A stretch of 64,000 bases of DNA from Nitrospira sp. (GTDB lineage Bacteria; Nitrospirota; Nitrospiria; Nitrospirales; Nitrospiraceae): positions 280,996 to 344,995 of the forward strand of contig JAVYIN010000007.1 of NCBI GenBank assembly GCA_035968315.1, written 5' to 3'. The notes beneath the pieces were generated by a model that was not told the origin of the DNA, did not search any database, and saw only the letters and a list, made by a program, of their open reading frames with translations. This document shows positions 144-21,583 of this stretch, piece after piece; within the stretch, counting starts at the first letter, position 1; every line of letters starts with the position of its first letter. The position numbers and the translations under genes were made by a program.

Positions 144-179
144 CCCCTCCTTCGTCAGGAGGGGCCAAGGGGAGGTCGA
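144..179 (+). repeat. Family A palindromic repeat, solitary copy
   Basis: The segment starts CCCCTCCTTCGTCAGGAGGGG, a GC-rich hairpin with an imperfect 8-bp stem, and ends GGGGAGGTCGA. Near-identical copies in the same orientation lie at 6804-6838 and 8936-8970, with inverted relatives at 6898-6931 and 9386-9420. The hairpin lacks a T-tract, so it is a REP-like dispersed repeat rather than a normal intrinsic terminator. Confidence 0.8.
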
Positions 180-735: not shown

Positions 736-743
736 CAACAAAT

Positions 744-830
744 GGGCAAGTGGTTAGAGGCACGGGGCTAGTGGAAAACCATCTCATAGCTGGTACCCCT
801 CGCCTCTCGCCCCTCGCCTCGTGCCAAGGG
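744..830. repeat. Family B imperfect inverted repeat between the two tat genes
   Basis: The left arm (744-774, containing AGAGGCACGGGGCTAG) and right arm (795-830, containing CTCGCCCCTCGCCTCGTGCC) are imperfect inverted copies of one GC-rich unit. Related arms recur at 10113-10204, 10984-11094 and 56626-56693. It fills almost the entire gap between tatA and the next tat gene, so it is probably transcribed with them. Confidence 0.6.
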
Positions 831-837
831 TTACACG

Positions 838-1137
838 ATGTTTGGATTAGGCGCCGGCGAAGTGCTCATCATTCTCGTGATTGCGTTTCTGCTCTTTGGG
901 CCGAAGCAATTGCCGGAGGTGGGGCGGCAAGTCGGGAAGGCGGTCAAGGGATTTAAGGAAACGGCGGAAGACCTGCGGAAATCGGTGGAGCCAGAGCTCA
1001 ACATGATTCAGCAGGAAGTGAAGATGGTCGAGCAGGACTTCCAAGCCTCCATGAAAGAAGCCGAAGAAGAGATCAACGCCGCTGGCCAGAAGCCGGAGCA
1101 GGGCCAAAAGTCGATCAACGAGGCGAATCAGGTCTGA
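838..1137 (+). CDS. TatA/TatB-family translocase subunit
   Basis: This 99-residue protein starts with a single transmembrane helix (residues about 6-20), the hinge FGPKQLPEVG, and an amphipathic segment VGKAVKGFKE, followed by a long acidic helical tail (VEPELNMIQQEVKMVEQDF...). The N-terminal Gly-Ala-Gly-Glu with Glu at residue 8 and the extended charged helix are TatB-like features, while the hinge is shared with TatA. It could be the TatB receptor partner of TatC or a second TatA. It follows tatA by 102 bp, and in many genomes such pairs sit together. No TatC is visible, so the full translocase must be completed elsewhere. Confidence 0.9.
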   Translation: MFGLGAGEVLIILVIAFLLFGPKQLPEVGRQVGKAVKGFKETAEDLRKSVEPELNMIQQEVKMVEQDFQASMKEAEEEINAAGQKPEQGQKSINEANQV

Positions 1138-1142
1138 ATGAT

Positions 1143-1256
1143 TTAGGTAAGGGGTGAGTGTCGAGAGGAAAGAGGAAAGAGGAATAAGGAGGAGTGGAAC
1201 GCAAGTGCAAGGGTTCATCCTCTAGCCCCGTGCCCCAGGCCTCGTGCCTAGTCAGA
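1143..1256. repeat. Degenerate family B repeat
   Basis: The segment 1217-1254 contains TCTAGCCCCGTGCCCCAGG and CCTCGTGCCTAG, closely matching the family B arm seen upstream of the second tat gene. The opposite arm (about 1146-1169, AAGGGGTGAGTGTCGAGAGG) is poorly conserved. A purine-rich run (about 1163-1195) separates them. Only the right arm is convincing. Confidence 0.4.
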
Positions 1257-1348
1257 AACGAGATTTTACGAGCTAAAACGAACAGGGTCGTGTAGAAGTG
1301 TCGTCGAGAGGCAGCAGACGAAAGGGTGCAGGGAAGGCCCTTTCGGAA

Positions 1349-1375
1349 TGGCATCCAGGAAGTCGATGGATGCCA
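1349..1375 (+). promoter_or_regulatory. Leader hairpin upstream of the porin gene
   Basis: TGGCATCCA (1349-1357) and TGGATGCCA (1367-1375) form a perfect 9-bp stem with a 9-nt loop, about 92 nt before the porin ATG. The 1257-1466 leader has further short inverted repeats (for example AGCC...GGCT near 1426-1440) and no open frame of note. A structured leader could affect mRNA stability or translation of the porin; no known riboswitch class is recognised. Confidence 0.4.
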
Positions 1376-1466
1376 TCATAGTGGCAGTAGTTGGATCGCA
1401 AGTCGGCAGCCTGTCTGTGGGAGTGGAGCCACCAGGGGCTGTCATCCAATTCACAGGAGGAACGCT

Positions 1467-3032
1467 ATGAGAAGAAGCAAGGAAGCAGCAAAGTGGGTGC
1501 TGGCAGCGGCCCTATTGGGGGCGATGCCGGCGGGTCAGGCCTTGGCCGATCCGCCCGTGGCGCCGAAGGTGATCGATTCACCGACCAATGTCCCGCCGGT
1601 CCCCCGCGCGATGCCGGATCTGATTCCCTACTGGAATTTCGATCCGCCCAAGAGCCCCTTGTTCGACCTCAGCAAGCTCACCGTCTCCGGTGATGCGCGT
1701 GTTCGTGCAGAGTCCCGCAAGAACGGGAATTTCGGGCAGGATGGAAGAAAGAATGCGGATTCGTTCGTCCAACAGTGGGCACGGCTCGGCCTGAACTACG
1801 CCGTGTCGCAAGATGTGGATATGTTCACCCAGCTCCAGTATTCCAAGAACTGGGGCGGTGCCGGATCGTCCGCCGGAGCGGCAAATGATTCGGGGAACCA
1901 GATCGGAAGTCCCACAAATGTCAGCGGGACTACCACCACCGGCAGTGGCAGCGTTCTCGGTGTCCGCCAGGCCTTCATCATGATCCGCAACCTGGGTGTG
2001 GATGGATTGAGCCTGAAGGTGGGCCGTCAGTTGGTCGTGATGGGCAACCATCGTTTATTTGGTCACTTCGATTGGAACAATCAGGCCTTCTCGCATGACG
2101 GTATCACGATGCAGTACAACCAGCCCACCTATGAAGTCTGGGCTGGCTGGTTGCATGAAGCGAATTCTGATGCAACTACTTCTGGTGCGTCAGCCGGTGC
2201 GGTGAGTTCAGCGGCATCCGGCGGTGCCAATGCCGATCTTTTCTTTACACGCCTGGTTTTCAAGCCGATCGCTGGCTTGGCGATCGAACCACTCTGGGTG
2301 TGGCAGAACAACAAGACGGGCACAGCTACGACTGTGACTACTGCGCATGCTCCAGGGCAGAGCCGGCATACCCTCGGTGGCCGGGCCGCCTATCGGAATG
2401 GCATGTTTGACGGTACGTTTGAGAGCTATTGGCAGACCGGGCATTTTGATGCGGCCAATCAACAGAATATCAGCATCAATGCGGTCGCCATGGCGGTGGA
2501 AGGTGGTATCACGTTGCAGGATGTGCCAACCACGCCGCGCCTGGGCTTGGAGTTTAACTATGCCTCCGGCGATAACGGCACGTGTAATGCCACGACGAAC
2601 CCTTCGGGCTGTCAGGGTAATGCCAACACGTTTGAGAACCTCTATCCGACCAACCATATCGTCATGGGCTATGCCGACCGTATGGCCTGGCGGAACATGG
2701 TTGGGTATAGCGGAAGCGTGCAGTTGAATCCGACTCAGCAGAGCCACTTGGAAACCCGGTACTGGGTCTTCCGGAAGGCGAACCAGAACGATTGCTGGTA
2801 CACGGCGTCACAAGCCTGCCAGTCATCAGCGTCCACGACGTCCAATTCACTCTATAAGGAATTGGATGTGATCTACACCCTGTTCTTCAAGGGCAACAAG
2901 GTGGCCTGGCAGACCGGCTACTCCTACCTTTGGGCCGGCAAGGGCATGGATCAGATCGTGGTGGCTTCGGGTAATGGTCCGTCAGCGTTGAACTCGCAGT
3001 GGATGTACACCCAGTTGCAAGTCAATTTCTAA
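1467..3032 (+). CDS. Alginate-export-family outer-membrane porin
   Basis: The ATG at 1467 follows a strong AGGAGG (1456-1460 region) and begins a clear signal peptide: basic MRRSK, a hydrophobic core, and an AQALA-type cleavage site (GQALA/D around residue 27), giving a 521-residue precursor. An upstream in-frame extension to 1326 lacks a ribosome site and would bury the signal peptide. The mature part is a beta-barrel: alternating hydrophobic strands, a VSGDARVRAESRKNG start typical of alginate-export (PF13372-like) porins, Gly/Ser/Ala-rich loops, and a C-terminal strand ending in Phe (QLQVNF). The family forms outer-membrane channels; the substrate cannot be read from sequence. Loops contain two Cys pairs (CNATTNPSGC and CWYTASQAC), probably disulfides. 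Transcription ends at a strong double hairpin just downstream. Confidence 0.85.
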   Translation: MRRSKEAAKWVLAAALLGAMPAGQALADPPVAPKVIDSPTNVPPVPRAMPDLIPYWNFDPPKSPLFDLSKLTVSGDARVRAESRKNGNFGQDGRKNADSFVQQWARLGLNYAVSQDVDMFTQLQYSKNWGGAGSSAGAANDSGNQIGSPTNVSGTTTTGSGSVLGVRQAFIMIRNLGVDGLSLKVGRQLVVMGNHRLFGHFDWNNQAFSHDGITMQYNQPTYEVWAGWLHEANSDATTSGASAGAVSSAASGGANADLFFTRLVFKPIAGLAIEPLWVWQNNKTGTATTVTTAHAPGQSRHTLGGRAAYRNGMFDGTFESYWQTGHFDAANQQNISINAVAMAVEGGITLQDVPTTPRLGLEFNYASGDNGTCNATTNPSGCQGNANTFENLYPTNHIVMGYADRMAWRNMVGYSGSVQLNPTQQSHLETRYWVFRKANQNDCWYTASQACQSSASTTSNSLYKELDVIYTLFFKGNKVAWQTGYSYLWAGKGMDQIVVASGNGPSALNSQWMYTQLQVNF

Positions 3033-3057
3033 GAAGCTGACAAGCGGCATAGGGCTC

Positions 3058-3132
3058 GGGGCGAGAGGATCTCTCGCCCCAGCTGGATGATGAAACCCCG
3101 CCGAGGGCGATCCCCTCGGCGGGGTTTTTCTT
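3058..3132 (+). terminator. Double hairpin with intrinsic terminator after the porin gene
   Basis: A first hairpin, GGGGCGAGAG (3058-3067) with CTCTCGCCCC (3071-3080), is followed by CCCCGCCGAGGG (3096-3107) pairing with CCCTCGGCGGGG (3112-3124) and a TTTTTCTTT tail. The second is a textbook rho-independent terminator for rightward transcription. Confidence 0.93.
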
Positions 3133-3222
3133 TGCCCTCCGCCGCACACGCGCAATCCCATTCCTCCCTTTGTCTCTTCTGACGAACGCCTATGGATAGC
3201 CTGATGCCTTGGACTATCATAT

Positions 3223-3245
3223 GTTGACCATGATCGTTGACCATG
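3223..3245 (+). promoter_or_regulatory. Direct-repeat operator candidate before the Phd/VapC pair
   Basis: GTTGACCATG occurs at 3223-3232 and again at 3236-3245, a 13-bp repeat period, just upstream of the antitoxin gene. The TTGACC inside each copy could also act as a -35 element. Toxin-antitoxin operons are usually autorepressed at such repeats, so this is a plausible antitoxin binding site. Confidence 0.45.
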
Positions 3246-3285
3246 GTAGCTTGATGCCATGGGTACACAGCGAAAACGTTCTGAG

Positions 3286-3528
3286 ATGGAAGAGATTTCG
3301 ATCTCGCAATTCAAGGCTACCTGTTTGGCCGTACTTGATCGTGTGAAACGGACCAATAAGTCCATTCTCGTGCTCCGTAAAGGAGAACCGATTGCGCAAG
3401 TCACGCCGCCACCCCCTCCGGTCAAGCAACAGGCATGGCTTGGGTCACTCTCGGATACCGGCAAGATTCTTGGAGATATTATCACTCCGGTGTCCCCGCC
3501 TGAGGAGTGGGAAGCCTATCGAGCATGA
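3286..3528 (+). CDS. Phd/YefM-family antitoxin
   Basis: From the ATG at 3286 the protein is 80 residues. It begins MEEISISQFKATCLAVLDRV, the standard Phd/YefM DNA-binding beginning, then the VLRKGEPIAQV strand and a Pro-rich linker (PPPPPV) leading to a toxin-binding C-terminus (LGDIITPVSPPEEWEAYRA). Family members bind and neutralise the cognate toxin and repress their own operon. An in-frame ATG at 3259 would add nine residues; neither start has a strong Shine-Dalgarno, and family alignment favours 3286. The stop overlaps the toxin ATG (ATGA), so the two are translationally coupled. Confidence 0.85.
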   Translation: MEEISISQFKATCLAVLDRVKRTNKSILVLRKGEPIAQVTPPPPPVKQQAWLGSLSDTGKILGDIITPVSPPEEWEAYRA

Positions 3529-3920
3529 AGTTATTGCTCGATACCCATGTGTTTCTGTGGAGTGTTCTTGACCCCGATCAACTTGCCACGGAGATTCGAG
3601 CCGAATTAGAAAGCCCGGCTCATGAGTTGTGGCTCTCGCCCATCACGTTGTGGGAAGTGCATCTCTTGGCGGAGAAGGGGCGCATCCTTCTCAAGCCGGA
3701 TGCGCCACGATGGATTCAACATGTCCTCGAATCCATCCCGTTTCATGAGGCTGCTGTCACGCATGCCGTGGCTTTGATGAGTCGGCACATCGATCTGGCT
3801 CACCAAGATCCCGCCGATCGGTTTCTTGCGGCGACGGCCGCAATCTATGAGCTGACGCTTGTCACGGCGGATGAACGCCTCTTGCACTCGCATCAGTTCA
3901 AGACTCTGGCTGCGCGGTAA
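3525..3920 (+). CDS. VapC-type PIN-domain toxin ribonuclease
   Basis: The 131-residue protein begins MKLLLDTHVFLWS, the canonical PIN start, and has the acidic catalytic set at Asp6, Glu44 (TLWEV), Asp98 (DPADRFLAATA) and Asp116 (TADERL). These residues bind Mg2+ for RNA cleavage in VapC-family toxins. The ATG at 3525 shares an ATGA overlap with the upstream antitoxin stop, the standard coupled arrangement; a longer start at 3507 is unlikely because it precedes the PIN strand by six residues with no ribosome site. A Phd-type antitoxin paired with a PIN toxin is a common mixed configuration. The RNA target is unknown. Confidence 0.9.
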   Translation: MKLLLDTHVFLWSVLDPDQLATEIRAELESPAHELWLSPITLWEVHLLAEKGRILLKPDAPRWIQHVLESIPFHEAAVTHAVALMSRHIDLAHQDPADRFLAATAAIYELTLVTADERLLHSHQFKTLAAR

Positions 3921-3966
3921 GGGGGACGAGGCGCAATTTAGAAGATCGGGAGAAGATCAGAAATGA

Positions 3967-5469
3967 TCAGCGGCTGACATGGCCAAGCGGGATCGATTGC
4001 ACGCCCACGGTCGGGGGGAGTGCGGGCACGGTGACGGCACTGCCTCTGAGAGAGCGGAGCCACTCGCCGAGGGTCACGACGCCATCGTGGTCAAGATCGG
4101 CCTCCCCTGCCAGGCCTGAGAGCAGGCCCTGAAGCTGGGGCGCTGCGCCGGTCGATCTGGCAATCTGAATCACCGTGGCGGTGGACGGTCCAGATGCCCC
4201 GGCTAGATCGGCGGCCCAGTTGGGCGCCACGGGTTTCGCTTTCCCGTCTTTCGGCAGTGCGGCTCCCGTCAAGGGCGTATCAAGCACAGCGAGGGCCAGC
4301 TTGGCGCCCAGTTTCTGTACGCGGCTTTGCAGCCAGCGCAGCGAGATGAGCCTGGTGCGCGACGAAGCCGGTGTCCCGTCGTAGGGAATAAGCGAGATCT
4401 CGCCGGTTTTCGGGTCGGCCAGAGCCTGGCCGCTGAAATAGAACAACACGATCGAGTCCTTGTTGACCCGCTTGGGGAGCCAGGAGGTCAGGGCTTCTTC
4501 GATGTCCTCTTGGGACGCCAGTTCGTCTTGCAGCAGCAGGGTGTGATTCTCAGGCACCTGGAGCGAATGGTTGAGGAGGGACAGGGTGCCCTTGCTGTCG
4601 AAGGCAAGGCCCTCCCGCCAGCCGGCCCAGGGAGTCCGGTAGAGGCCCACGCCCACGACCACGGCGTAACGATCGGCCTCGTGGGTGCTCGCGGCAGGAG
4701 GTTGGACTGAGAGGGCAGGCGCTGCGGGAGGAGCTGCCACCGGCGCCGGATTTATGATTGGAGCCGAGGCCGTGGCGGCAGGGGGCGCTGCCGGAACTTG
4801 ATTGGACGCGACCTGCGTGACCGTGCCGGCCTGTGTCTTGGCGACGAGCTGTGCGACATACTGGGGAAACTGGTCGGCGAGCTGTTCCGTGGCGGTCTTC
4901 ATGACGTCATCTAAACTTTGCGTGGCACATCGGCTGCTTCCGCCGAATAGCGGAGTCCAGATACTGGCGGCTTCCGAATAGGTGAGCGGCGCGTCTGGCA
5001 GCGGATTCCCCTGAGGATCGTAAAAGATGGCGATGAGCTGGATATCGACCTGTGCGACATACCGGTCGTCCGCGCCGGTGCGCGTTTTGGCTGTCAGGGA
5101 TTGGTGCAGAAGCTTGATGGTGGCGGTGATGGGAATGGCGCCCGGCGCGGAGACCGGCGCGGGGGCTCCCGTTGTGTCCGCGATGGACATCTGGGCAAAC
5201 CGGACCCGGCCTGTCTCGTGAAAGGCTTGGACGAGGGCGTCTCCCAGCTTTCCTTTCCAGGCAACGTCAGCACAGGCCTGGTGTTCCAGGATGGCTGTTC
5301 GCACGGAGGGGTCGAAACTCAGGGCGACGGACGCGGGGATAAGCGGTTGCGATTGCCGCGCTGGCGCATCGGAGAGGCGTGGGGCTTTAAAATTGCTGCA
5401 TGCGGCCGTGACGCAGACGATGGCCCCTACAAGGGTTGTCAGGAGCAAGGGGGCAGGCCGCATCAACAT
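3967..5469 (-). CDS. Lipoprotein with inactivated caspase-like domain and EF-hand
   Basis: This 500-residue protein starts with a lipoprotein signal (hydrophobic stretch to VTAAC, lipidated Cys24). Residues about 40-215 form an uncharacterised domain; 217-262 is a Pro/Ala-rich linker. Residues about 267-430 match the caspase/p20-like fold: RYAVVVGVGLYRTP, a DSIVLFYFSGQAL strand and an ALAVLDTPLTG strand. In active caspase-like peptidases the motifs are FSGHG and DxC; here the His position is Gln348 and the Cys position is Pro399, so the catalytic dyad is missing and the domain is probably a binding or scaffold module. Residues 458-469 (DLDHDGVVTLGE) form a complete EF-hand-type Ca2+ loop. It is divergently oriented to another lipoprotein gene at 5628. 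Localisation should be periplasm-facing membrane. The fold assignment is by motif only. Confidence 0.75.
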   Translation of the reverse strand: MLMRPAPLLLTTLVGAIVCVTAACSNFKAPRLSDAPARQSQPLIPASVALSFDPSVRTAILEHQACADVAWKGKLGDALVQAFHETGRVRFAQMSIADTTGAPAPVSAPGAIPITATIKLLHQSLTAKTRTGADDRYVAQVDIQLIAIFYDPQGNPLPDAPLTYSEAASIWTPLFGGSSRCATQSLDDVMKTATEQLADQFPQYVAQLVAKTQAGTVTQVASNQVPAAPPAATASAPIINPAPVAAPPAAPALSVQPPAASTHEADRYAVVVGVGLYRTPWAGWREGLAFDSKGTLSLLNHSLQVPENHTLLLQDELASQEDIEEALTSWLPKRVNKDSIVLFYFSGQALADPKTGEISLIPYDGTPASSRTRLISLRWLQSRVQKLGAKLALAVLDTPLTGAALPKDGKAKPVAPNWAADLAGASGPSTATVIQIARSTGAAPQLQGLLSGLAGEADLDHDGVVTLGEWLRSLRGSAVTVPALPPTVGVQSIPLGHVSR

Positions 5470-5627
5470 CGGAATAAGATACCCGATCGTGTGGATGGAT
5501 ACAACGAGGATATTGGCTCAACCCCCTGGCTGGACCCGATCCGGCTCAGCCCAGCTTGACTGTTTGGTGAGGGGAGGAGGATGATTCATTTCGATGTCAT
5601 CCTGAGTCTTTCACCGGGAGGTCGGCT

Positions 5628-6386
5628 ATGGCGCTCGTGCGAGTAATGACCGCTGTGCTGTCGTGCAGTGCCTTCTTGTTTGCCGGGTGCAGTCAGCAGC
5701 CGCTCTCGCGCATCAGTCACTATGTGGGCGGCTCCGGTGAGCAGGCGCCTCTGGCGGTCTCTGTTCAACCGGCCTCAGTAAGCAGCCCGATCATGGCCGG
5801 GCTGTTGGTGATCAATGACACGTCCGCCGCAGGACCCGCCACTGCCTTATCCGATCGGGCCAAGGCTTTTCTCACGCATCAGGTCCGCGAGCGAGTCGAA
5901 GGAGCGACGCCGATTCATATTGCCCAGGTGCTTGCGGCGAATGGTTCCGCGCAGCCGCAAGGGCCGGACGCGCTGGTCAAGCTGGCGCGGGAGCAAGGGC
6001 TGACGCATCTCTTGGTCGCGCTCTTCTCCAGTGCCGAGTCCGAAGTGCCTATGTACCTTCCCCTCACGGGCGATCCGGAGCAGGGGGGCTCGCGTCCGGG
6101 GGTGCCGGGCTATGAAGCGGTCAATTATGCGCTGGCTGAATTGGCCTTGCTCGACACGGCGAGCGGGCAGGTCATCGCCCGGTCCGATGGACGGGCCTGG
6201 GCCAGGCTCAACCGGTTGAATGTGCCGATGGCGTCGAACGCCTACCCGGTGATTCATCGCTCGCTTCGCCCGGCGCCTATTTACCCGCCGGCCGCCGATG
6301 CCAAGGACGTCTTGCGCAGCCTGGCCGCCGATGAGGCCTTAGAGCAGGCCGCTTCCAAGCTGCAAGAGGCCTGGCCAAAATCCTGA
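5628..6386 (+). CDS. Predicted lipoprotein, function unknown
   Basis: The 252-residue protein has a lipoprotein signal ending LFAGCSQQ (lipidated Cys21) and a GGGAGG ribosome site before the ATG. The body contains an alternating alpha/beta region (SPIMAGLLVINDTS, AREQGLTHLLVALFSS, YALAELALLDTASGQVIARSDG) resembling periplasmic lipoproteins that share a fold with the beta-alpha nucleotide-binding or TPM-like regions, but I cannot name a family. It is divergent from the pseudo-caspase lipoprotein gene and about 120 bp before a small lipoprotein gene, so the three may form an envelope-stress or assembly group. That grouping is inference. Confidence 0.7.
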   Translation: MALVRVMTAVLSCSAFLFAGCSQQPLSRISHYVGGSGEQAPLAVSVQPASVSSPIMAGLLVINDTSAAGPATALSDRAKAFLTHQVRERVEGATPIHIAQVLAANGSAQPQGPDALVKLAREQGLTHLLVALFSSAESEVPMYLPLTGDPEQGGSRPGVPGYEAVNYALAELALLDTASGQVIARSDGRAWARLNRLNVPMASNAYPVIHRSLRPAPIYPPAADAKDVLRSLAADEALEQAASKLQEAWPKS

Positions 6387-6507
6387 TGCGCCTTCGCGGC
6401 CGCTCTCTCCATACGGACGCAGCCTGTCTTGTCCTTGACCTGGCCGGAGGCTCTCCACTATCCTGCCTCATCTGATCGAGGAGCCCCTCTCACGGCTGGA
6501 GGTATCT

Positions 6508-6762
6508 ATGCGCTGGTTTCATGTCCTGTTGGTGTTGTTGCTGGCGACTGCGTGGACGGCCTGTTCATCGACCCGCTGGGTGCATCCGACCAAGAAAGAG
6601 GAGTTTCTGACCTACGACTGGAATCAATGCGAGCGCGACTGGCTCAATCTGATGGCCACGAATCCTGGCATTGCGGGAATGGCTGATAATCAAGCGCTCA
6701 CGCGGCAGCGAATAGACCGCTGTCTGCAGAAAAAAGGCTGGCGGAAAATCGAGGAGGAGTAA
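6508..6762 (+). CDS. Small predicted lipoprotein
   Basis: The 84-residue product has a short basic start (MRWFH), a hydrophobic core and a lipobox WTAC (Cys19). The mature part is short, Trp- and charge-rich, with two Cys (NQCERDW and IDRCLQKKGWRKIEEE) spaced by about 30 residues that may form a disulfide. CTGGAGGT provides a good ribosome site. This pattern (C...CL..KGW) is seen in small outer-membrane lipoproteins of unknown function. No catalytic motif is visible. Confidence 0.75.
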   Translation: MRWFHVLLVLLLATAWTACSSTRWVHPTKKEEFLTYDWNQCERDWLNLMATNPGIAGMADNQALTRQRIDRCLQKKGWRKIEEE

Positions 6763-6803
6763 TTAAGAATATAGAAGGCGATTGCTGAAAGCCGAACTCA
6801 TTT

Positions 6804-6931
6804 CCCCTCCTTCGTAAGGAGGGGTGAGGGGAGGTCGAGGCTGTCGCCAGCCATGAGAGGCTTGTGTGTTCGTGCGCGGCGTGGTTGCTGTGAGCCTCTA
6901 CCCCTCCGTGCCTCCCCTTACAAAGGGGAGG
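6804..6931. repeat. Family A inverted repeat pair (REP doublet, no gene inside)
   Basis: A family A unit at 6804-6838 (CCCCTCCTTCGTAAGGAGGGG followed by GGGGAGGTCGA) faces an inverted relative at 6898-6931 (CCTCCCCTTACAAAGGGGAGG hairpin at 6911-6931), with about 60 bp between. The pair has the same ends as the DUF559-carrying unit at 8936-9420 and looks like a shorter, non-coding version. The surrounding 6763-7039 gap holds no gene. A GCTGAAAGCC motif just outside the left unit also recurs near the larger copy. Confidence 0.75.
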
Positions 6932-7039
6932 ACAGAACGGACATGGATCGCCGATGGCCGGTTGCCGATAGCTTTCTTTCTCCCTGCTCCTCTATACTTC
7001 CTGCGCAGTCATCGGTTTCATGCCAATCTGTAATGCCCC

Positions 7040-8896
7040 GTGGACCATCTCACTCGACAACTCAAAACACAGTTCAGCTTTGCGGAATTCCGGCCCGGCC
7101 AGCTTGAGGTGATTCAAGCGGTGCTGGCCCGGCGCGACGCGCTGGCGGTCATGCCGACCGGCCAGGGGAAATCGCTTTGCTATCAATTGCCCGCCACGCT
7201 GCTGCCGGGGTTGACGCTGGTTGTGTCCCCGTTGATTGCTTTGATGCAGGATCAGGTCGAGAGTCTGAAGCAGCGGCAGATCGCCGCCGCCGCCTTTCAC
7301 TCCGGCCTATCCGAGCCGGAGCGCGACAAGGTAATGCAAGCGTTGCATTTGCAACGGCTGAAGCTCCTGTATGTGGCGCCGGAACGGATGCAGCATGAGG
7401 GATTTCTCCGGATCCTGCGCTCCTGCCTCATTTCGCTGCTGGTGGTGGATGAAGCGCACTGCATCTCGCAATGGGGGCACGATTTCAGGCCCGATTACAT
7501 GAAGATCGGCCGCCTGCGCCGGGAACTCAATCAGCCGCCTTGTCTGGCGCTGACGGCGACGGCCACGACGCGTGTGCAGGCCGATGTATGTGAACGGCTG
7601 GCCCTGCGCGATCCGCTGAAGCTGGTGACGGGGTTCCGCCGGACGAATCTGGCCCTGTCCGTCCGCCCCTGCCAATCCATGCCTGACAAGCTGGGCGCGC
7701 TGCAGCGGCTGGTCCGCGCCTGTGAAACCGGCACGATCCTGGTCTATTGCGCCACCCGCCGGACGGTGGAGGAAGTGGCGAGCTGGCTGGGGCAGTCGCA
7801 GCCCTCGGTCGGCTATTACCATGCGGGCCTGTCCGATGACGAGCGGCGGCTGGTGCATGACGATTTTCGCCGGGGGGTGCTGCGCATTCTGGTGGCGACG
7901 AACGCCTTCGGCATGGGTATCGACAAGCCGGATGTGCGCCTCGTGGTCCATTTCGATATTCCCGGCAGTGTGGAAGCCTATTACCAAGAGGCCGGGCGGG
8001 CTGGGCGCGACGGATTGCCTGCCGCCTGCGTGGTGCTCTTCCACGAGCGGGATCTGGCGACGCAGGAGTATTTCATTCAGCAGGCGGGGAAAGATCCGTC
8101 GAGCGCCGACCGGGCGGAGCGCATGCGGACGTTGTTACAAGAGATGCTCGCCTATGTTGCGGTGCCGACGTGCCGCCAGCTCGCGATTCTGGATTACTTC
8201 AGCGATGAGGAAGAGCGGGCGCTGGGTCCCTGCGGTCTGTGCGACCGGTGTGCGACCGGCCAGCCGGCTGAGCCGGCGTTGATGGCGGATGATCAGGCCT
8301 GCGCGAAGGCGATTCTGGAGACGGTGTCCTGGTGCGAGGGGCGGTTCGGCGTCAGCCGCCTCGTTGAAATTTTGCGCGGGAGCCGCTCGAAGGCGATGGC
8401 CTCCTCTGGCGCCGAGCACTGCCCGACCTATGGCAGTTGCCGCGATCGTTCGAAGGTGGCGATGACGCGTCTGGTCAAAGAGCTGATCGACTCAGGTCAT
8501 CTGGCCGTCGAAGGGCAGGAGTACCCCACGCTGGATCTCTCCCGTCTTGGGCGTGAGGCCTTGAAGGGAATTGGCACGATCACCGTTCCGCCGTCCGATC
8601 CGGCGCAGCCTGTTTCACGGGCGAGCAAGCCGTCCGGCGAACGGCCCAAGACCATGGTCCTGCTCCGCGCCTCTCCCGGCGATGCCCAGCTCTATGAACG
8701 ATTGCGTCAGTTGCGGACGGCCCTTGCGGAGGAAGAAGGGGTGGCGCCCTTTGTGATTTTCCACGACAAGACGCTGCGCACGATCGCCAGCCATAAGCCG
8801 CTGACGGCGGCGGCCTTGCTGGAGATTCCCGGCATCGGCGACGTGAAAGTCGAACGGTACGGCCGCCGGGTGCTGGAGATTGTGAAAGGGGAATAG
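7040..8896 (+). CDS. recQ: ATP-dependent DNA helicase RecQ
   Basis: This 618-residue protein has all RecQ motifs in order: an aromatic-rich FAEFRPGQLEVI motif 0, Walker A MPTGQGKS (Lys44), DEAH box at 137-140 followed by CISQWGHDFR (aromatic-rich loop), SALTATAT-type motif III (LALTATATT), and C-terminal RecA-like motifs (YYHAGLSDDER, ATNAFGMGIDKPDVR, QEAGRAGRDG). A zinc-binding Cys cluster (CGLCDRC), RQC winged-helix region and a C-terminal HRDC domain (LYERLRQLRTALAEEEG... LLEIPGIGDVKVERYG) follow. RecQ unwinds 3'-5' in recombination and replication-fork repair. The start is a GTG at 7040 immediately preceding the conserved N-terminus; the upstream region has weak ribosome-site signal. It is flanked on both sides by family A repeats. 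Confidence 0.95.
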   Translation: MDHLTRQLKTQFSFAEFRPGQLEVIQAVLARRDALAVMPTGQGKSLCYQLPATLLPGLTLVVSPLIALMQDQVESLKQRQIAAAAFHSGLSEPERDKVMQALHLQRLKLLYVAPERMQHEGFLRILRSCLISLLVVDEAHCISQWGHDFRPDYMKIGRLRRELNQPPCLALTATATTRVQADVCERLALRDPLKLVTGFRRTNLALSVRPCQSMPDKLGALQRLVRACETGTILVYCATRRTVEEVASWLGQSQPSVGYYHAGLSDDERRLVHDDFRRGVLRILVATNAFGMGIDKPDVRLVVHFDIPGSVEAYYQEAGRAGRDGLPAACVVLFHERDLATQEYFIQQAGKDPSSADRAERMRTLLQEMLAYVAVPTCRQLAILDYFSDEEERALGPCGLCDRCATGQPAEPALMADDQACAKAILETVSWCEGRFGVSRLVEILRGSRSKAMASSGAEHCPTYGSCRDRSKVAMTRLVKELIDSGHLAVEGQEYPTLDLSRLGREALKGIGTITVPPSDPAQPVSRASKPSGERPKTMVLLRASPGDAQLYERLRQLRTALAEEEGVAPFVIFHDKTLRTIASHKPLTAAALLEIPGIGDVKVERYGRRVLEIVKGE

Positions 8897-8918
8897 GAAC
8901 GCTCTCAGCCGTCAGCGT

Positions 8919-9362
8919 TCAGCTCTCTTTTCTAACCCCTCCTTCGTAAGGAGGGGCTAGGGGAGGTCGAGTCTTTCCGTGCGGGGCCGCTGAAGTCGAG
9001 TTTATTGCAATGCGCTTGAGTAAGTCATTGAGGACACCGTCAAGGTTGCTGACCACGTCATGGTTCTGATAGCGAACGACTTGCAGCCCGAGCGACTCAA
9101 GATAGCGATCGCGCTGCTGATCTTTTTGAATCTGCTCGGCATCGGCATGATTGTCCCCGTCGATTTCGATGACGAGCGCCTGTTCTGGGCAGAAGAAGTC
9201 TACAATGTATGGGCCAATCCCATGCTGACGTCGGAACTTGAGCCCCTGAACTTGTCGTGCCCGCAGCTTCCACCATACCTGCTGCTCTGGACCGGTCATG
9301 GTAGAGCGTAGTTTTCGCTTGAGGCCAAGATAGTCTGCTTGTCCGCGTTTGGCTCTCGGCAT
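8919..9362 (-). CDS. DUF559-family endonuclease-like protein
   Basis: The 147-residue product has the DUF559/Vsr-like layout: an N-terminal helix TGPEQQVWWKLRARQ, then GLKFRRQHGIGPYIVDFFCPEQALVIEIDGD, with the restriction-fold acidic residues (DFFCP Asp, EIDGD Glu/Asp) and a final QVVRYQNHDVVSNLDGVL segment. Such proteins share the PD-(D/E)XK-like core of very-short-patch repair nucleases. The last residues, RPPLAPPYEGGVRKES, are translated from the family A palindrome at 8936-8970, so the gene runs into the repeat that bounds it. An inverted family A copy lies just upstream of its start (9386-9420). It is transcribed against recQ. Nuclease activity and any role in repeat mobility are unproven. 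Confidence 0.85.
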   Translation of the reverse strand: MPRAKRGQADYLGLKRKLRSTMTGPEQQVWWKLRARQVQGLKFRRQHGIGPYIVDFFCPEQALVIEIDGDNHADAEQIQKDQQRDRYLESLGLQVVRYQNHDVVSNLDGVLNDLLKRIAINSTSAAPHGKTRPPLAPPYEGGVRKES

Positions 9363-9420
9363 GACGCATTACCTCTCGGTCTTCTCTACCCCTCCTATCC
9401 TCCCCTTACAAAGGGGAGGT
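8936..9420. mobile_element. Candidate repeat-bounded mobile unit carrying the DUF559 gene
   Basis: The DUF559 gene is enclosed by family A palindromes in opposite orientation: 8936-8970 (CCCCTCCTTCGTAAGGAGGGG, then GGGGAGGTCGA) and 9386-9420 (CCTCCCCTTACAAAGGGGAGG core). Outside each end lies a further inverted motif of CAGC/GCTG repeats (CAGCCGTCAGCGTTCAGC at about 8907-8924 and GCTGAAGGCTGATGG at about 9437-9451). The 6804-6931 doublet has the same ends without a gene. This resembles an autonomous/non-autonomous pair, but no target-site duplication is proven. Confidence 0.5.
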
Positions 9421-9460
9421 ATTTCCTGAAAACTAATCGCTGAAGGCTGATGGATGACAG

Positions 9461-10078
9461 CTACTTTAGATTCCCCGCCTTGGCAAACCGCTCCTGAAGC
9501 TCCTGGTAGGTCTGTGTCACCGGGAATTGCGGGAATTCTTTGGGCAGATGATCGGGCGGTCTGAAGAAGAAGCCGGCGTCGGCTTCGCCGAGCATGGCGG
9601 TGTCGTTGTACGCGTCGCCCGCGGCCATGGTGAAGAAGTTCAGGCTCTTGAAGGCGGCGACGGAATGTTTCTTCTGATTCGGCATCCGCATATGGTGGGC
9701 GAGAATGTTCCCGCTGCCGTTGATTTCGAGCTGATTGCAGAACAAGGTGGGATAGCCCAGCTGGCGCATGAGCGGCAGGGCGAATTGATAGAAGGTGTCG
9801 GAGAGAATGATGACCTGGCAGCGCTCGCGCAGCCAGGTGACGAACTCCGGCGCGCCTTCCAGCGGGCCCATCTTTCCGATGACGTCCTGGATGTCGGCAA
9901 TGGTCAGCTTGTGCTCGTCAAGAATGGCCAGCCGGCGCTTCATCAGCTTGTCGTAGTCCGGCATTTCACGCGTGGTGATTTTCAGTTCTTCGATGCCGGT
10001 CTTCAGCGCGACGTTGATCCAGATTTCCGGCACGAGCACGCCTTCCAGGTCCAAACAGGCAATGACAGGCTTCTGCAT
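9461..10078 (-). CDS. thrH: ThrH-type phosphoserine phosphatase / homoserine phosphotransferase
   Basis: From the ATG at 10078 (preceded by GAGGGA) the protein is 205 residues, the usual ThrH size; an upstream in-frame start at 10117 adds an unconserved 13 residues. It is a HAD-superfamily phosphatase: motif I CLDLEGVLVPEIW (nucleophile Asp10 with Glu12 as seen in ThrH), motif II IILSDTF, and motif III/IV region AAGDAYNDTAML. ThrH dephosphorylates phosphoserine and can move the phosphate to homoserine, linking serine and threonine metabolism. It sits upstream of a YkgJ-type gene on the same strand with a family B repeat between them. Confidence 0.9.
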   Translation of the reverse strand: MQKPVIACLDLEGVLVPEIWINVALKTGIEELKITTREMPDYDKLMKRRLAILDEHKLTIADIQDVIGKMGPLEGAPEFVTWLRERCQVIILSDTFYQFALPLMRQLGYPTLFCNQLEINGSGNILAHHMRMPNQKKHSVAAFKSLNFFTMAAGDAYNDTAMLGEADAGFFFRPPDHLPKEFPQFPVTQTYQELQERFAKAGNLK

Positions 10079-10112
10079 GTTGTCTCCCTCTGTTGCGAGT
10101 TGAAAAATGTCT

Positions 10113-10204
10113 GGCAAGTGGCGAGGGGCACGAGGCTAGGGGTGAGGAGCGTGTTCCGACTATTTGCCATCGGCCCCTTGCCTCTCGCCTCGTGCTTCTT
10201 GCCC
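10113..10204. repeat. Family B inverted repeat
   Basis: The left arm at 10113-10144 contains GGCAAGTGGCGAGGGGCAC and GAGGCTAGGGG; the right arm at 10172-10204 (GCCCCTTGCCTCTCGCCTCG) is its imperfect inverse. The repeat spans the gap between the YkgJ-type gene and thrH and extends into the 3' end of the former, which therefore encodes a repeat-derived tail. Confidence 0.7.
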
Positions 10205-10969
10205 TTGTTGAAAGGCCTGGCTCAGAAACCGCCAGACTTTGTCGAGCGCGCGGTCGAGCAGCTGGGTGCCCTGCCAGCGGGGCTGATTCTCTTCGTGATG
10301 GCGTTCGGCCCAGTCCAATGCCGTTGCCAGGGGAATGAGCCGTGGCGGCGTGCCGGTCAACTCGCCCCATAGCAGGCTCAGGGCCGGCCCGATCCGCACC
10401 GGGACCGGGATGGGTTGAACCGCATTCGCCACGAGGTCTTGGCACCATTCGGCCGGTGAGGTGACCAGGAGCTCACGGCAGGCGGCCGGCCGCTGCTCAT
10501 AGATGGAGCAGACTTCCTGCTCCAGAAATGGGCAGGGCAGCTTGAGCGCGTAGTAGGCCCGATTGACCGGCTCCAGCGCGGCGTCATCCGGCGGGTTGGC
10601 CGATTCTCCCATTGCCAGCAAGTCGTTCCAGAGTCCCTGGGCCAGCAGCGCCGTCCTGGTGATGGCCAATCGCTGTGTGAGGCGCGCGCGTTCCTCGTCC
10701 GGCAAGGTGTGCACATAGGCGCGGAGGGCAAAGGCTTCCGGAGCCGAGACGGGCACGAGCATGCGGCAGCAGGCGGCACAGCCTTTTTTGCAGGAGATCG
10801 TGCTCCCGGCCGCGATGAGCTGCTGTTCTTCCAGCCCCTGCGCTTCTTCTCCCAACCGGCGCATCAACGGCACAATGGCCGAAACCGGCACGAAGCCGGT
10901 CGGGACCTCGACGGTGCTGGTGAGCCGTCCGGCTGGTGTGTTCAGGGCAATGTCGTATTGTTCGGTCAT
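10160..10969 (-). CDS. YkgJ-like cysteine-cluster protein
   Basis: The 269-residue protein has the YkgJ/FliB-type metal-binding Cys cluster CKKGCAACC (Cys60, 64, 67, 68) and downstream CPFLEQEVCSIYEQRPAACRE, the paired Cys set of this Fe/Zn-chelating family. Its biochemical role is not established. The last residues (EARGERQGADGK) are read from the family B repeat at 10113-10204, so the repeat appears to have extended the native C-terminus. The gene is just upstream of thrH on the same strand. A second YkgJ-type gene is present at 23926. Confidence 0.8.
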   Translation of the reverse strand: MTEQYDIALNTPAGRLTSTVEVPTGFVPVSAIVPLMRRLGEEAQGLEEQQLIAAGSTISCKKGCAACCRMLVPVSAPEAFALRAYVHTLPDEERARLTQRLAITRTALLAQGLWNDLLAMGESANPPDDAALEPVNRAYYALKLPCPFLEQEVCSIYEQRPAACRELLVTSPAEWCQDLVANAVQPIPVPVRIGPALSLLWGELTGTPPRLIPLATALDWAERHHEENQPRWQGTQLLDRALDKVWRFLSQAFQQGQEARGERQGADGK

Positions 10970-10983
10970 CGTACTTCGTACTC

Positions 10984-11094
10984 AGGCCAGGGGTGCGGGG
11001 CACGTGGCTAGAGAGGATAACACCTGCTGGATTGCATTCGGCCGTATTCTATCTCCGAGCTCTCGCCTCGCGCCCCTGGCCTCTTGCCAGCAGG
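10984..11094. repeat. Family B inverted repeat
   Basis: The left arm (10984-11012, GGCCAGGGGTGCGGGGCAC) and right arm (11060-11094, TCTCGCCTCGCGCCCCTGG) are imperfect inverses. The right arm also matches the 10113 and 56626 copies. It lies in the divergent gap between the YkgJ-type gene and the gene at 11212. Confidence 0.65.
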
Positions 11095-11211
11095 GACCGC
11101 TCGCCGCGCATTAGCGGCATCATAGAGAACCGTTTGCGCGATGGTCAACCGACGGGCTCTCTTGCCCCGGCCATCCGGAATCCCGATAATGCGGCAGGGG
11201 GAAGGCGAACC

Positions 11212-11598
11212 ATGTTGTCGGGTCATGTGATCGGACTCTTGAAAGAGTACATGCGGGATCTCGTGGAGCAGGCCAGGCAAGAGACGCAGGCGCAGGCGCG
11301 CTTTGGCTTTGCGACAACCGCCTATCGGCCGGACCAGGCGCTATCGGATTTGTTGGCGCTGCTCGACGACCGGATCGAGTCGGAAGGCGTGCAGGTGGGA
11401 TTGCCGGACGGGTTTCTCCACGATATGTGGACGTTGTGCAATGAGGCCGGTGCGTACGTGACGGATCGTGTGTATGTGGAGGCGAACGTCGATTCCGAAT
11501 CCAGCAGCACAGCCAGAACCAGGGAATTGACGTACCGCGCCTTGCTGGAATTCATCGAAGCGGGGGGCCGTGCGCCGTCGCTGGGAGGGGCCGCGTGA
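11212..11598 (+). CDS. Conserved-looking small protein, function unknown
   Basis: From the ATG at 11212 (preceded by GGGGGAAGG) the product is 128 residues, largely alpha-helical and acidic, soluble, with no signal peptide. Recognisable segments are an N-terminal helix (VIGLLKEYMRDLVEQARQE) and a C-terminal helix (TYRALLEFIEAGGRAPSL). A longer upstream open frame to 10936 is read through a family B repeat and is not credible. I cannot name a family. It converges with the ydcF gene. Confidence 0.65.
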   Translation: MLSGHVIGLLKEYMRDLVEQARQETQAQARFGFATTAYRPDQALSDLLALLDDRIESEGVQVGLPDGFLHDMWTLCNEAGAYVTDRVYVEANVDSESSSTARTRELTYRALLEFIEAGGRAPSLGGAA

Positions 11599-11621
11599 TG
11601 AGCCGGTTGGCGACGAGGCGC

Positions 11622-12437
11622 TTATAGTTTGCCTGCCAGCCGGTACAGGATCATGCCGGCCGTTTCCTCCGCCACTTCGGTTGTGCGTTGCAAGGCCCAG
11701 CTTGCCGGCAGGAGATCGAAGAGCGTGAGATCTTTCCAGGCGTCCATCACCCGGTGTTTGGCATGAAATCCACAGGCGTAGGGTGTGACGTGAAATCCCT
11801 GCTTTTCGAAGAGGGCGGTGGCGCGCCACAGGTGGCCGGCTGAGCTGACGAGCAGGATCGAGGCCTGTTCGCCGAGCAGCCGTTTGGTGCCCAGCGCATT
11901 TTCATAGGTGGTTCTGGCGTGATCATCGGTGAGGATGGCCGGTGCCGGGACCCCAAGCCGGATGGCCCACTCTTTCATGGTAGCGGGCTCCGTAGGGCCG
12001 GACCCGAAGAGACTGAGATCTCCGCCCGTGATGAGGAAGGCCGGTGCGAGCCCCTGGTGGAATAGGTCGGCGCCGCAGATGGTGCGCAGCCGCGACTCCG
12101 GCGAAAGCTCAATCGATGGCCGAAGCGTGCCTTTGTCGTGAATCCCCCCGCCGAGCACTACGATGGCCTGCGCAGGGGGAGCAGAGGGGCCGGGTTGATT
12201 CACGGGCCAGCTTTCGAGCAGGCTCGTGAGGGGTTTGGCCACGAGGGGGGTCGTGGTGAACAGCAGGGTGAGGCAGGTCATGGTCGCGGCCAGGCGGATG
12301 TGGCGCTGACGCGCCGGTGTGGCCGGGAGCCAGGCGAGGATGAGGGTGAGGCCGGCCAAGCCAACGACCCAGGTCAAGGGGTACACGCCGTACTTGACGA
12401 GTTTGTAGAGGACGAAGAAGAATGGGGTGAGTTCCAT
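11622..12437 (-). CDS. YdcF/ElyC-family membrane protein (DUF218)
   Basis: The 271-residue protein has two N-terminal transmembrane helices (about residues 5-35 and 48-66) followed by a DUF218 domain: AIVVLGGGIHDKG, RLRTICGADLFHQG, AFLITGGD, TYENALGTKRLL and ILLVSSAGHLWRA. The GGG and the TxENA motif are typical of the YdcF/SanA/ElyC family, which acts in envelope or peptidoglycan-carrier homeostasis in enterics. The role here is unproven. It is read convergently with the gene ending at 11598 and divergently from the EVE-domain gene. Confidence 0.88.
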   Translation of the reverse strand: MELTPFFFVLYKLVKYGVYPLTWVVGLAGLTLILAWLPATPARQRHIRLAATMTCLTLLFTTTPLVAKPLTSLLESWPVNQPGPSAPPAQAIVVLGGGIHDKGTLRPSIELSPESRLRTICGADLFHQGLAPAFLITGGDLSLFGSGPTEPATMKEWAIRLGVPAPAILTDDHARTTYENALGTKRLLGEQASILLVSSAGHLWRATALFEKQGFHVTPYACGFHAKHRVMDAWKDLTLFDLLPASWALQRTTEVAEETAGMILYRLAGKL

Positions 12438-12509
12438 AGAGGCTCCGTGTGATTAGGGCCGGTGGCCCAGCATATCTATCAGACGTCTAGTCAAGGGAGG
12501 ACAGCTCGC

Positions 12510-12983
12510 ATGGCTCCATCTCGGCGCTATTGGCTGATGAAATCGGAACCGTCGGTCTTTTCGATTGACGATCTGGCGCGCGGCCCCAATCGCAGCACCT
12601 GTTGGGACGGCGTGCGGAACTATCAGGCCAGAAATTATATGCGGGCCATGCAGGAGGGCGATCAGGTGCTGTTTTATCACAGCAATGCCACGCCTCCCGC
12701 GATTGTGGGAATAGCGGAAGTCATCAATACGGTCTATCCGGACCCGACTCAGTTTGAACGGTCGAACCAGCATTTCGATCCCAAGAGCGATCCCTTGAAG
12801 CCCCGTTGGGACATGGTCGAGATTCGGCATGTCCGGACATTCGCTGAGCCTCTCTCTCTGACGCGTTTGCGGGACGAGCCGGCGCTCAAAGGGATGGTGC
12901 TGCTCCAGAAGGGATCGCGGCTGTCCGTTCAGCCGGTGGCCGAAAAGGAATGGCGTCATATTCTGAACATGGCTGGGGCGTGA
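12510..12983 (+). CDS. EVE-domain protein
   Basis: The start is taken at the ATG at 12510, after GGGAGGACAG. The 157-residue protein matches the EVE/thymocyte nuclear protein fold: RYWLMKSEPSVFSIDDL, TCWDGVRNYQARNYMR, GDQVLFYHSN, PAIVGIAEV and a C-terminal WDMVEIRHVRTF. EVE domains bind modified bases such as methylcytosine-type nucleotides, and many are linked to restriction or RNA modification. It stands alone here, next to ydcF, with no visible nuclease partner, so it is probably the housekeeping type. Confidence 0.92.
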   Translation: MAPSRRYWLMKSEPSVFSIDDLARGPNRSTCWDGVRNYQARNYMRAMQEGDQVLFYHSNATPPAIVGIAEVINTVYPDPTQFERSNQHFDPKSDPLKPRWDMVEIRHVRTFAEPLSLTRLRDEPALKGMVLLQKGSRLSVQPVAEKEWRHILNMAGA

Positions 12984-13004
12984 CCCGGATCTGACAACCG
13001 CCTG

Positions 13005-13268
13005 TCAGTTGCGGGCTTTTCCTTCATCGAGATACCGGTGCTGCCAGTCCAGCCAGGCATGTCCGAGTTCATGGGCGAGAATATAGCGGCGCCGTGTCAC
13101 CGGGAGACGTTTGCGAATATAAATCGTCTTGGTTTCCTCGTCCCAGATCCCATCAGAATTGGAATCCTGCTTATCCATTTCGGCGTCCGTGAGTTGGCGG
13201 ACCGAAATGCGATAGCCGAACGGAAGAATAACTCGAGTCGGGATTCGCGTAATCACAACCTGCTCCAT
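13005..13268 (-). CDS. Small HExxH metallopeptidase-like protein
   Basis: The 87-residue product from ATG 13268 carries HELGHAWLDWQHRYLDEG (His66, Glu67, His70), the zinc-binding helix of M78/IrrE or M48-like metallopeptidases, and little more. Residues 35-46 (DSNSDGIWDEET) resemble a Ca2+-binding EF/dockerin-like loop directly ahead of a beta strand (TKTIYIRKRL). A GTG start at 13322 would add 18 residues. It is minimal in size for a peptidase and may be an inhibitor-binding or SprT-like remnant. It converges with the EVE gene. Confidence 0.65.
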   Translation of the reverse strand: MEQVVITRIPTRVILPFGYRISVRQLTDAEMDKQDSNSDGIWDEETKTIYIRKRLPVTRRRYILAHELGHAWLDWQHRYLDEGKARN

Positions 13269-13501
13269 CCAATATGGTGGCGGATGCCCCGGTGACCTGC
13301 TCAAATCAGGGGGACGCCCCACCCTCTTTCGTATCCTGCCGTTACAGTACCATAAAGCCGTTGCGGAGTGCCTGTCTAGTTATTGCTTATATATCAATGC
13401 TCTATGAGTGTTTTTGATGATCGTTTCAGGAACGGGAGGAGGGCAAGAGGGGGCTGGTCTACGGTTCCCCTTCGGAGGGATTTCGTGTATTATGCCGCGT
13501 C

Positions 13502-14257
13502 ATGGATCAGGCCATTATTGAAGAATTGTCAAAGGGATATCCCCACTCGGTCAGGCTGACCGAGGTCAAGGTGCGCGATCGCGGGGAAGTCAAGAAGCTC
13601 GATGCCGGAGAGTTGCCGCTGCATGTCGGCGACCGGGTCTTGCTCGAAGTGGATGGCGAAGTGACGTATGGGGTGGTCTATGCCGAGCCCTATCGCACGC
13701 CGTTCATTCCGCCGATGCGTGTCTTGAAACCTATCCTGCGCAAAGCCAGTTCGGAGGATGCGGCGCTGATTGCCCGGCTTGAGCGGCTGTCACACGAGGC
13801 CACCAGCTATTGTCGGGCGAAAGCCTCGGAGTTCAAACTCCGTCTGAAACTGGTTGAAGTGTTCGGCGCGCTGCAGCGGCGGCAGCTCACGTTTGTCTAC
13901 ACGGCCGACGATCGCATCGATTTCCGCGAGCTCGTGCGGGACCTGGCCCGGCGCTTTGGCGGCCGCATCGAAATGCGGCAGGTCGGTGTGCGTGAAGAAG
14001 CGCGGCGGCTTGGGGGCATCGATACCTGCGGGCTGGTCCTCTGCTGCGCGAGTTTTCTCACCGAAGTGAAGCCCGTGACGGTGAAGCAAGCCAGAACACT
14101 GGGCCTGCAAGTGGAAGACCCCCGGTTGCTCGGTGTCTGCGGGCGGCTCAAATGCTGCCTCATGTTTGAAATGATGGATGCGCAGGGCAATATCCCGCAG
14201 TCCGCGCAGAAGCTGATCACACCCACCAAGTCCAATCCCTCAACGATTACGTCCTAG
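13502..14257 (+). CDS. PSP1-domain protein RicT-like (YaaT)
   Basis: The 251-residue protein matches the RicT/YaaT PSP1 family: VRLTEVKVRDRGEVKKLDAG, GDRVLLEVDGEVTYGVV, a central helical region, FVYTADDRIDFRELVRDLARRFGGRIEMRQVGVREEARRLGG segments, and the Cys-rich motifs IDTCGLVLCCASFL and GVCGRLKCCLMFE. In Bacillus, RicT is part of a complex with RicA and RicF that carries Fe-S clusters and acts in RNA processing. In other phyla it often sits by DNA polymerase III genes, but no such neighbour is seen. The first ATG lacks a clear Shine-Dalgarno, so the exact start is less sure than the family. Confidence 0.92.
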   Translation: MDQAIIEELSKGYPHSVRLTEVKVRDRGEVKKLDAGELPLHVGDRVLLEVDGEVTYGVVYAEPYRTPFIPPMRVLKPILRKASSEDAALIARLERLSHEATSYCRAKASEFKLRLKLVEVFGALQRRQLTFVYTADDRIDFRELVRDLARRFGGRIEMRQVGVREEARRLGGIDTCGLVLCCASFLTEVKPVTVKQARTLGLQVEDPRLLGVCGRLKCCLMFEMMDAQGNIPQSAQKLITPTKSNPSTITS

Positions 14258-17521: not shown

Positions 17522-17580
17522 CCTCTACAGGGTGTCTACACCGCTCGGTGTCGGGAAAGAGGGGAGTTGTAAGTGCTTGT

Positions 17581-17629: not shown

Positions 17630-17699
17630 GCTGCTTGTGGGGGTTGCTCAAGTCCTTGACGATTTGGGCAATCCCCGCTCTCCTCTAGGCGAATCGCAG

Positions 17700-21573: not shown

Positions 21574-21583
21574 TAGGAGGCAG

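Follow-up and report, generated by a model that had tools for sequence, protein, structure and literature searches.

DUF559 nuclease genes adjoin intrastrand-triplex repeats across bacterial phyla and might define a class of mobile elements

What joins a small nuclease gene of Nitrospira to the GC-rich palindromes at its two ends is the question raised by the locus between recQ and a thrH-like gene, found in a 64-kb stretch of DNA that was analysed as a whole (hereafter the window). The original prediction, a reading of this DNA alone, had described a Vsr-like nuclease gene bounded by two inverted copies of one palindrome, termed family A, and had likened the arrangement to REP elements mobilised by RAYT transposases. 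The relevant features are as follows:

8936..9419, no strand assigned: whole gene-bearing element, 484 bp, both tails inward
8919..9362, minus strand: DUF559 nuclease gene, 147 aa, by profile match and AlphaFold model
8936..8967, plus strand: L end, triplex motif CCCCTCCT-TCGTA-AGGAGGGG-CTA-GGGGAGGT
9387..9419, minus strand: R end, triplex motif CCTCCCCTT-TGT-AAGGGGAGG-ATA-GGAGGGGTA, 25 bp upstream of the DUF559 start
6804..6931, no strand assigned: gene-less L-R doublet, 128 bp, MITE/REPIN-like, upstream of recQ
6804..6835, plus strand: L triplex motif of the doublet, by triplex finder
6899..6931, minus strand: R triplex motif of the doublet, by triplex finder
144..176, plus strand: solitary L triplex motif, by triplex finder
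7040..8896, plus strand: recQ helicase gene (context), with elements on both sides, a hot spot common to related genomes
9461..10117, minus strand: thrH-like phosphatase gene (context), facing recQ across the gap found filled, with a doublet or empty

The sequence bounding the DUF559 gene reads CCCCTCCTTCGTAAGGAGGGG (from 8936) on one side and CCTCCCCTTACAAAGGGGAGG (to 9419) on the other. The gene does lie between paired ends, but these are not copies of one palindrome, an option ruled out by the difference between the stems: L has CCCCTCCTT and R has CCTCCCCTT, each with a G-rich tail on its inner side that is the mirror image of the stem in question, and the two are never swapped for each other. 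Both types of unit have the same layout, namely a pyrimidine-rich stem, a loop of 3-5 nt, a complementary purine stem, a 3-nt gap and a G-rich mirror stretch. A triplex finder run over the 64-kb window recovered exactly five motifs, all perfect and all in L/R units, including those of the doublet at 6804-6931, which had been predicted to carry the ends of the gene copy, and the motif at 144-176, where a solitary unit had been noted. The genome contains 6 L units and 4 R units against 0 matches for a reversed-pattern control, and the doublet folds with a z-score of -5.3 relative to dinucleotide shuffles; an Rfam search of window positions 1-14000 recovered no known RNA family. The control patterns, the fold z-score and the locus statistics (see below) together rule out chance palindromes. 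Degenerate CTGTCAGC/GCTGAAAGCTGA-type repeats flank the elements (8900-8930, 9425-9460) and are present also at empty recQ-thrH gaps, representing another repeat family of the genus. Elsewhere in the window, the 3' end of a tRNA-Lys gene (23667-23742) supplies a 50-bp exact direct repeat that recurs at 17580-17629, and a tyrosine-integrase-like ORF (22543-23661) adjoins this tRNA, pointing to an integrated element with att sites that occupies 17580-23712 (~6.1 kb). Two tandem stretches of 71-74% identity (46734-48120 and 50171-51581), ~3.45 kb apart, suggest a duplicated gene pair.

Repeats of the BoxC/PIT/triplex type have been known since the 1990s, and to our knowledge no enzyme has been tied to their spread. 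By their sequence, the family A palindromes are intrastrand-triplex motifs (TMs) of this BoxC/PIT/TM-ECO class. TMs were defined by a pyrimidine-rich stem A, a complementary stem B and a third strand C mirroring B (G.GC, A.AT, T.AT), with a second loop of ~3 nt, and the five perfect motifs of the window all display this architecture; the L and R ends are assigned to the intrastrand purine-motif triplexes because their G-rich stretch mirrors the purine stem. Among asymmetric hairpins near DUF559 genes a mirror fits better in 62 cases and a direct copy in 20 (sign test p=4e-6), which rules out a third strand formed as a direct repeat. The known members likewise consist of a C-rich stem, a loop, a G-rich stem, a ~3-nt loop and a mirroring G-rich third strand, and in E. 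coli also occur as tandem inverted pairs. However, the window subtype, CCCCTCCTT / CCTCCCCTT, differs in sequence from that of E. coli, and the class was described as intergenic and lacking a mobility gene, whereas here it is tied to DUF559 genes. A published survey found TMs in 262 genomes, with 23 in E. coli K-12, and linked them to genome instability (Holder et al. 2015, PMC4666352); triplex formation in DNA was demonstrated for the E. coli motif (PMC4666352) and is predicted for the window's subtype. Four DUF559 genes (L003, L005, L006, L008) have another inverted hairpin, ATCACTCCCCCCTTGAGGGGGAGTCG, on their flanks, for which the finder reported no third strand.

The protein encoded between the ends matches the entire PF04480 domain (112.8 bits against a cut-off of 20.6, E=9e-33) and has the acidic and histidine residues conserved in the DUF559 family, in which E26, D55, E66, D68, G69, H72, D81 and R84 are invariant across 65 aligned sequences. 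It is the only DUF559 copy in its genome (G000, 3.11 Mb), and its nearest named relatives are from Nitrospiraceae. Foldseek searches with its AlphaFold model (mean pLDDT 85.9) recovered DUF559 from Neisseria (3hrl), Vsr (1vsr, 1cw0) and the homing endonuclease I-Bth0305I (3r3p), the last with E=2.3e-4 and a TM-score of 0.79 when normalised by target length; a profile match to I-Bth0305I was also obtained (E=0.0032). On the strength of model and profile the protein is a predicted nuclease of the PD-(D/E)XK/Vsr fold, in keeping with the Vsr-like nature originally proposed. Its E. coli relative YcjD was assigned to the PD-(D/E)XK superfamily long ago (PMC1189080), and the Caulobacter DUF559 protein VsrA, which acts in the DNA-damage response and is itself able to cause such damage, has been read as a nuclease of mismatch repair (PMC12907096). 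Codons 133-142 of the window gene (PPLAPPYEGG) fall inside 8936-8967, so that the repeat itself, on the opposite strand, encodes the C-terminus of the nuclease, as had been noticed at the outset.

The ends of the gene-bearing unit recur in gene-less form throughout the genus. In 40 regions fetched around R units in the window's genus nearly every R is paired with an L, mostly spanning 125-134 bp, with a few short forms of 78-115 bp. Such doublets always comprise one L and one R, tails inward and oriented as in the gene-bearing unit, which itself spans 484 bp in the window and 456 bp in another genome (G065) with the same ends; the prediction that doublets carry the ends of the gene copy thus extends across the genus. 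To judge from these shared ends, the gene-bearing unit is the putative autonomous copy and the doublets are its miniature derivatives. Genomes of this genus usually have a single DUF559 copy, so the gene-bearing unit appears to multiply poorly.

Orthologous places were found in different states in different genomes. The recQ-thrH gap holds the gene in four genomes (G000, G025, G065, G095), a 128-bp doublet in another (G094) and neither in several other relatives. The closest relative (G014), whose RecQ is 92% identical, lacks the doublet that the window has upstream of recQ. On the 5' side of thrH, G094 carries a second DUF559 subtype with its own motifs where G030 is empty, and at a further locus (L216) three genomes have the filled state and others the empty one. 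The original prediction had named empty sites and target duplications as the signs to be sought in related strains: pairs of filled and empty sites exist at these four places, and no target-site duplication was seen, adjacent direct repeats being no more frequent than expected by chance (79/500 shuffles reach the observed value). Three aligned filled/empty loci yielded no exact junction because the intergenic DNA of the empty sites is too diverged. Complementarity of the outer flanks shows a weak excess (23/500 shuffles reach the value), and certain flanking letters recur, with T at -2 before L in 33/40 and A at +2 after R in 31/40; T-T before L and A-A after R are recurrent, giving a pyrimidine|purine context. 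Comparison between genomes supports the view that these units can move.

The association of DUF559 genes with TMs extends far beyond this genus. Eighty DUF559 loci, taken in order of their similarity to the window protein and hence not a random sample of the family, were drawn from 84,980 species genomes; they span Nitrospirota, Proteobacteria, Bacteroidota, Planctomycetota, Chloroflexota, Cyanobacteria, Patescibacteria, Myxococcota and others. Among the 76 with enough flanking sequence for statistics, 67 have a TM within 250 bp, as against 13/179 other ORFs of the same loci (p=7e-38), and 32 have TMs on both sides within that distance, as against 0/179 (p=5e-20); stricter and laxer definitions of the TM gave a similar contrast. 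Inverted-repeat scores of at least 30 were obtained at 33/76 DUF559 loci and at 0/400 random intervals from these loci. An adjoining TM was found at 18/24 Nitrospirota DUF559 genes (the window's included), 15/24 having one on both sides, and at 6/14 DUF559 genes on viral contigs. None of 30 true Vsr genes (PF03852), the closest of the familiar relatives, and none of 5 distant DUF559-like domains within very long ORFs had one. Palindrome-free flanks are therefore not the rule among related DUF559 genes, and the REP-like framing of the original prediction applies to DUF559 genes generally rather than to the window alone.

In a survey of 146 genomes of the window's order, which are phylogenetically non-independent, a strong DUF559 gene was present in 19/23 of those that have four or more TM-ECO-type motifs versus 27/123 others (p=5e-8), and in 9/10 versus 27/122 when the motif-rich genus g3 was left out. 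One reversed-pattern motif control, not independent because the motif is nearly mirror-symmetric, was swapped for a full-motif pattern. In 10 TM-poor genomes 15/49 TMs are found no more than 250 bp from a DUF559 gene (0.014 expected), and the CCTCCCCTT palindrome is present in 5/5 genomes of the genus that possess the window's DUF559 subtype versus 5/74 others. Two TM-rich genomes (G057, G121) lack an intact DUF559 gene and a third (G108) has only a fragment, and the sequences of TMs and of DUF559 proteins are weakly correlated (Mantel r=0.15, 13/5000). The association as such is firm and close to certain. In open-access PMC text, the literature naming DUF559 and that on intrastrand triplexes in bacteria do not overlap.

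Roughly one in four of the 80 loci has its DUF559 domain inside, or joined to, a long host ORF, with the stems of the motifs translated. The hosts include HsdM (L077, L078, L084, L100, L105), HsdR (L089, L096, L101, L104), a Type ISP enzyme (L103), a UvrD-type helicase (L065), a zinc carboxypeptidase (L070), PriA (L116), MetH (L106) and the C-terminus of a GATase_5 protein (L094); HsdS and HsdM of relatives are also hosts (L005, L008, L011, L012). The MetH, PriA, HsdM, HsdR and Type ISP proteins are split in frame: MetH aligns to the solved enzyme through residues 9-406 and 551-675, which flank the insert, and the insert of PriA precedes the helicase core. A nuclease gene in frame within essential-type proteins such as MetH and PriA, with no intein, is unusual in itself. 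Insertions of this kind concentrate in hsdM, hsdR and hsdS of unrelated bacteria, in similar loops. One Nitrospira locus (L091, Nitrospira sp. DGJ02_3_Bin65, 2309-4648) has DUF559 in an apparent intein of an N6/N4 DNA methylase, with repeat-type peptides nearby.

In E. coli the DUF559 gene is ycjD (1351407-1351760, minus strand), of whose queried region at least 80% was found in one place in 3,333/5,426 genomes. TM-ECO number 9 of the Holder table (1351239-1351204) lies 168 bp past its stop codon, and, much as at the end of the window gene, a degenerate stem takes in the last codons of ycjD (...SPSP-stop). In two inspected strains (L202/L203 versus L178) an efflux operon, known as eefRABCD (PMC12817139), replaces ycjD and its TM between fabI and sapF. 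At alx-sstT (L199 versus L204/L205) some strains have a triplex doublet shortened by 75 bp between its two CCCTCTCCC copies, so that the remaining hairpin has no third strand; excision is ruled out here, the change being a deletion between the CCCTCTCCC direct repeats. TM doublets of E. coli change by ordinary deletion between short direct repeats.

These features recall several known systems. The REPtron, in which a RAYT gene is accompanied by GTAG REPs and REPINs, is alike in outline, with the gene of one enzyme family between inverted hairpin repeats and with dispersed gene-less doublets of fixed size, which in the window's genus are mostly those of 125-134 bp. Yet its enzyme is an HUH tyrosine transposase rather than a PD-(D/E)XK Vsr-like nuclease such as DUF559, its repeats bear a GTAG tag in contrast to the triplex third strand (CTA-GGGGAGGT, ATA-GGAGGGGTA), and in-frame insertions bearing a nuclease gene are a feature of DUF559. 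The likeness to REP/RAYT systems originally drawn therefore stands for the inverted gene-less doublets and falls for the repeats, which are BoxC/PIT-class triplex motifs, not GTAG REPs; membership of the RAYT/GTAG REP group is ruled out by both the tag and the enzyme, which is unrelated to RAYT. Homing endonucleases of the EDxHD type, such as I-Bth0305I, have a homologous catalytic domain and insert into conserved genes; in contrast, the window gene is free-standing, in no intron or intein, and the DUF559 element has inverted triplex ends and gene-less derivatives. The Rickettsia palindromic elements (CGTC REPs) similarly place palindromes in frame in coding genes with no enzyme known, but differ in repeat sequence and tag (PMC3733652). 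Vsr has the fold of DUF559 (1vsr, 1cw0) but its true genes lack adjoining TMs, as noted above. Relative to classical MITEs and insertion sequences, filled and empty sites are present and a target-site duplication is lacking.

That the unit is a dispersing element appears likely, and it might well be a compact selfish element of mobile type, in which a DUF559 gene between inverted TMs specifies the cognate nuclease of those ends. The sequence comparisons are best read with DUF559 as the acting enzyme, a view favoured with somewhat better than even confidence. At its widest, with a rough probability of 0.55, the proposal is that of an undescribed class of mobile elements, present in many phyla including E. 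coli, whose DUF559 nuclease would recognise an intrastrand triplex, copy any segment between two such ends, account for the origin and spread of BoxC/PIT/TM repeats and insert in frame into host genes. The reading as a selfish element is favoured because TMs adjoin nearly all sampled DUF559 genes and no true Vsr gene; because gene-bearing and gene-less units have the same two unlike ends in a fixed arrangement; because filled, doublet-only and empty states occur at one orthologous place; and because many unrelated loci have a copy, in some cases in frame in a conserved host gene. RAYT transposases are thought to serve REPINs, and by analogy DUF559 would mobilise its own copy together with gene-less L-R doublets with matching ends. 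A TM might fold on single-stranded DNA at replication, on the lagging-strand template or at a stalled fork, upon which DUF559 could nick or cut at or beside the folded end. The L-R unit might then be copied elsewhere via repair or template switching, preferably into a pyrimidine|purine context and with no duplication formed. Against this count the lack of a target-site duplication or exact junction, the usual single DUF559 copy per genome in the genus, the TM-rich genomes with no intact DUF559, the ordinary deletions in E. coli doublets, the weak correlation between TM and DUF559 sequences, and the repair role ascribed to VsrA (PMC12907096).

A different, distinctly less probable view is that DUF559 is a homing-type nuclease, kin to the EDxHD enzymes, which spreads by target cutting and recombination, the TMs being cut sites or repair footprints rather than transposon ends. 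The kinship in fold and profile to I-Bth0305I, the apparent intein of the Nitrospira DNA methylase and the repeated insertion into the same loop of HsdM and HsdR in distant bacteria all fit this view. Classical homing, which needs a site-specific empty allele, would not be expected to yield gene-less doublets with both ends at many sites or TMs at hundreds of places. It is rather unlikely that TMs are fragile sites gathering foreign DNA, with DUF559 as one cargo among several and with a separate role in repair or restriction. In its favour, TM loci are rearranged among E. coli strains (Holder et al. 2015, PMC4666352), ycjD alternates with eefRABCD between fabI and sapF, and VsrA is part of a DNA-damage response (PMC12907096). 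However, TMs favour DUF559 over both neighbouring ORFs (67/76 versus 13/179) and Vsr genes (0/30), the ends lie on both sides in a defined orientation, and in TM-poor genomes the TMs sit at the DUF559 gene itself. That a RAYT or similar transposase moves the TMs with DUF559 as a passenger is very improbable: no enzyme is known for the CGTC REPs, which other transposases have been suggested to mobilise (PMC3733652), but transposase- and integrase-like genes were never found beside TMs (Holder et al. 2015, PMC4666352), and in the loci examined, where RAYT genes were not systematically searched, only DUF559 lies repeatedly between the ends. Least probable of all, the repeats would be terminators or regulators of DUF559, close to it for functional reasons and not mobile, as their good folding and frequent position at gene ends might suggest, but purine-motif triplexes cannot arise in RNA and PIT elements showed neither promoter nor terminator activity (as reported in PMC4666352), and copies in frame inside genes and common gene-free doublets speak against this.

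Thus the mobile-element reading, with DUF559 as the nuclease of the triplex ends, suggests by comparison of sequences that DUF559 might be the missing agent in the spread of BoxC/PIT/triplex repeats, which mark unstable loci in more than 260 genomes of the published survey. The specific, phylum-wide link makes DUF559 a candidate enzyme, and the question can be tested in E. coli K-12 with ycjD and the 23 motifs listed for that strain. If it is true that the enzyme acts on triplex DNA, DNA would have a further, novel means of moving, and a tool might come of it.
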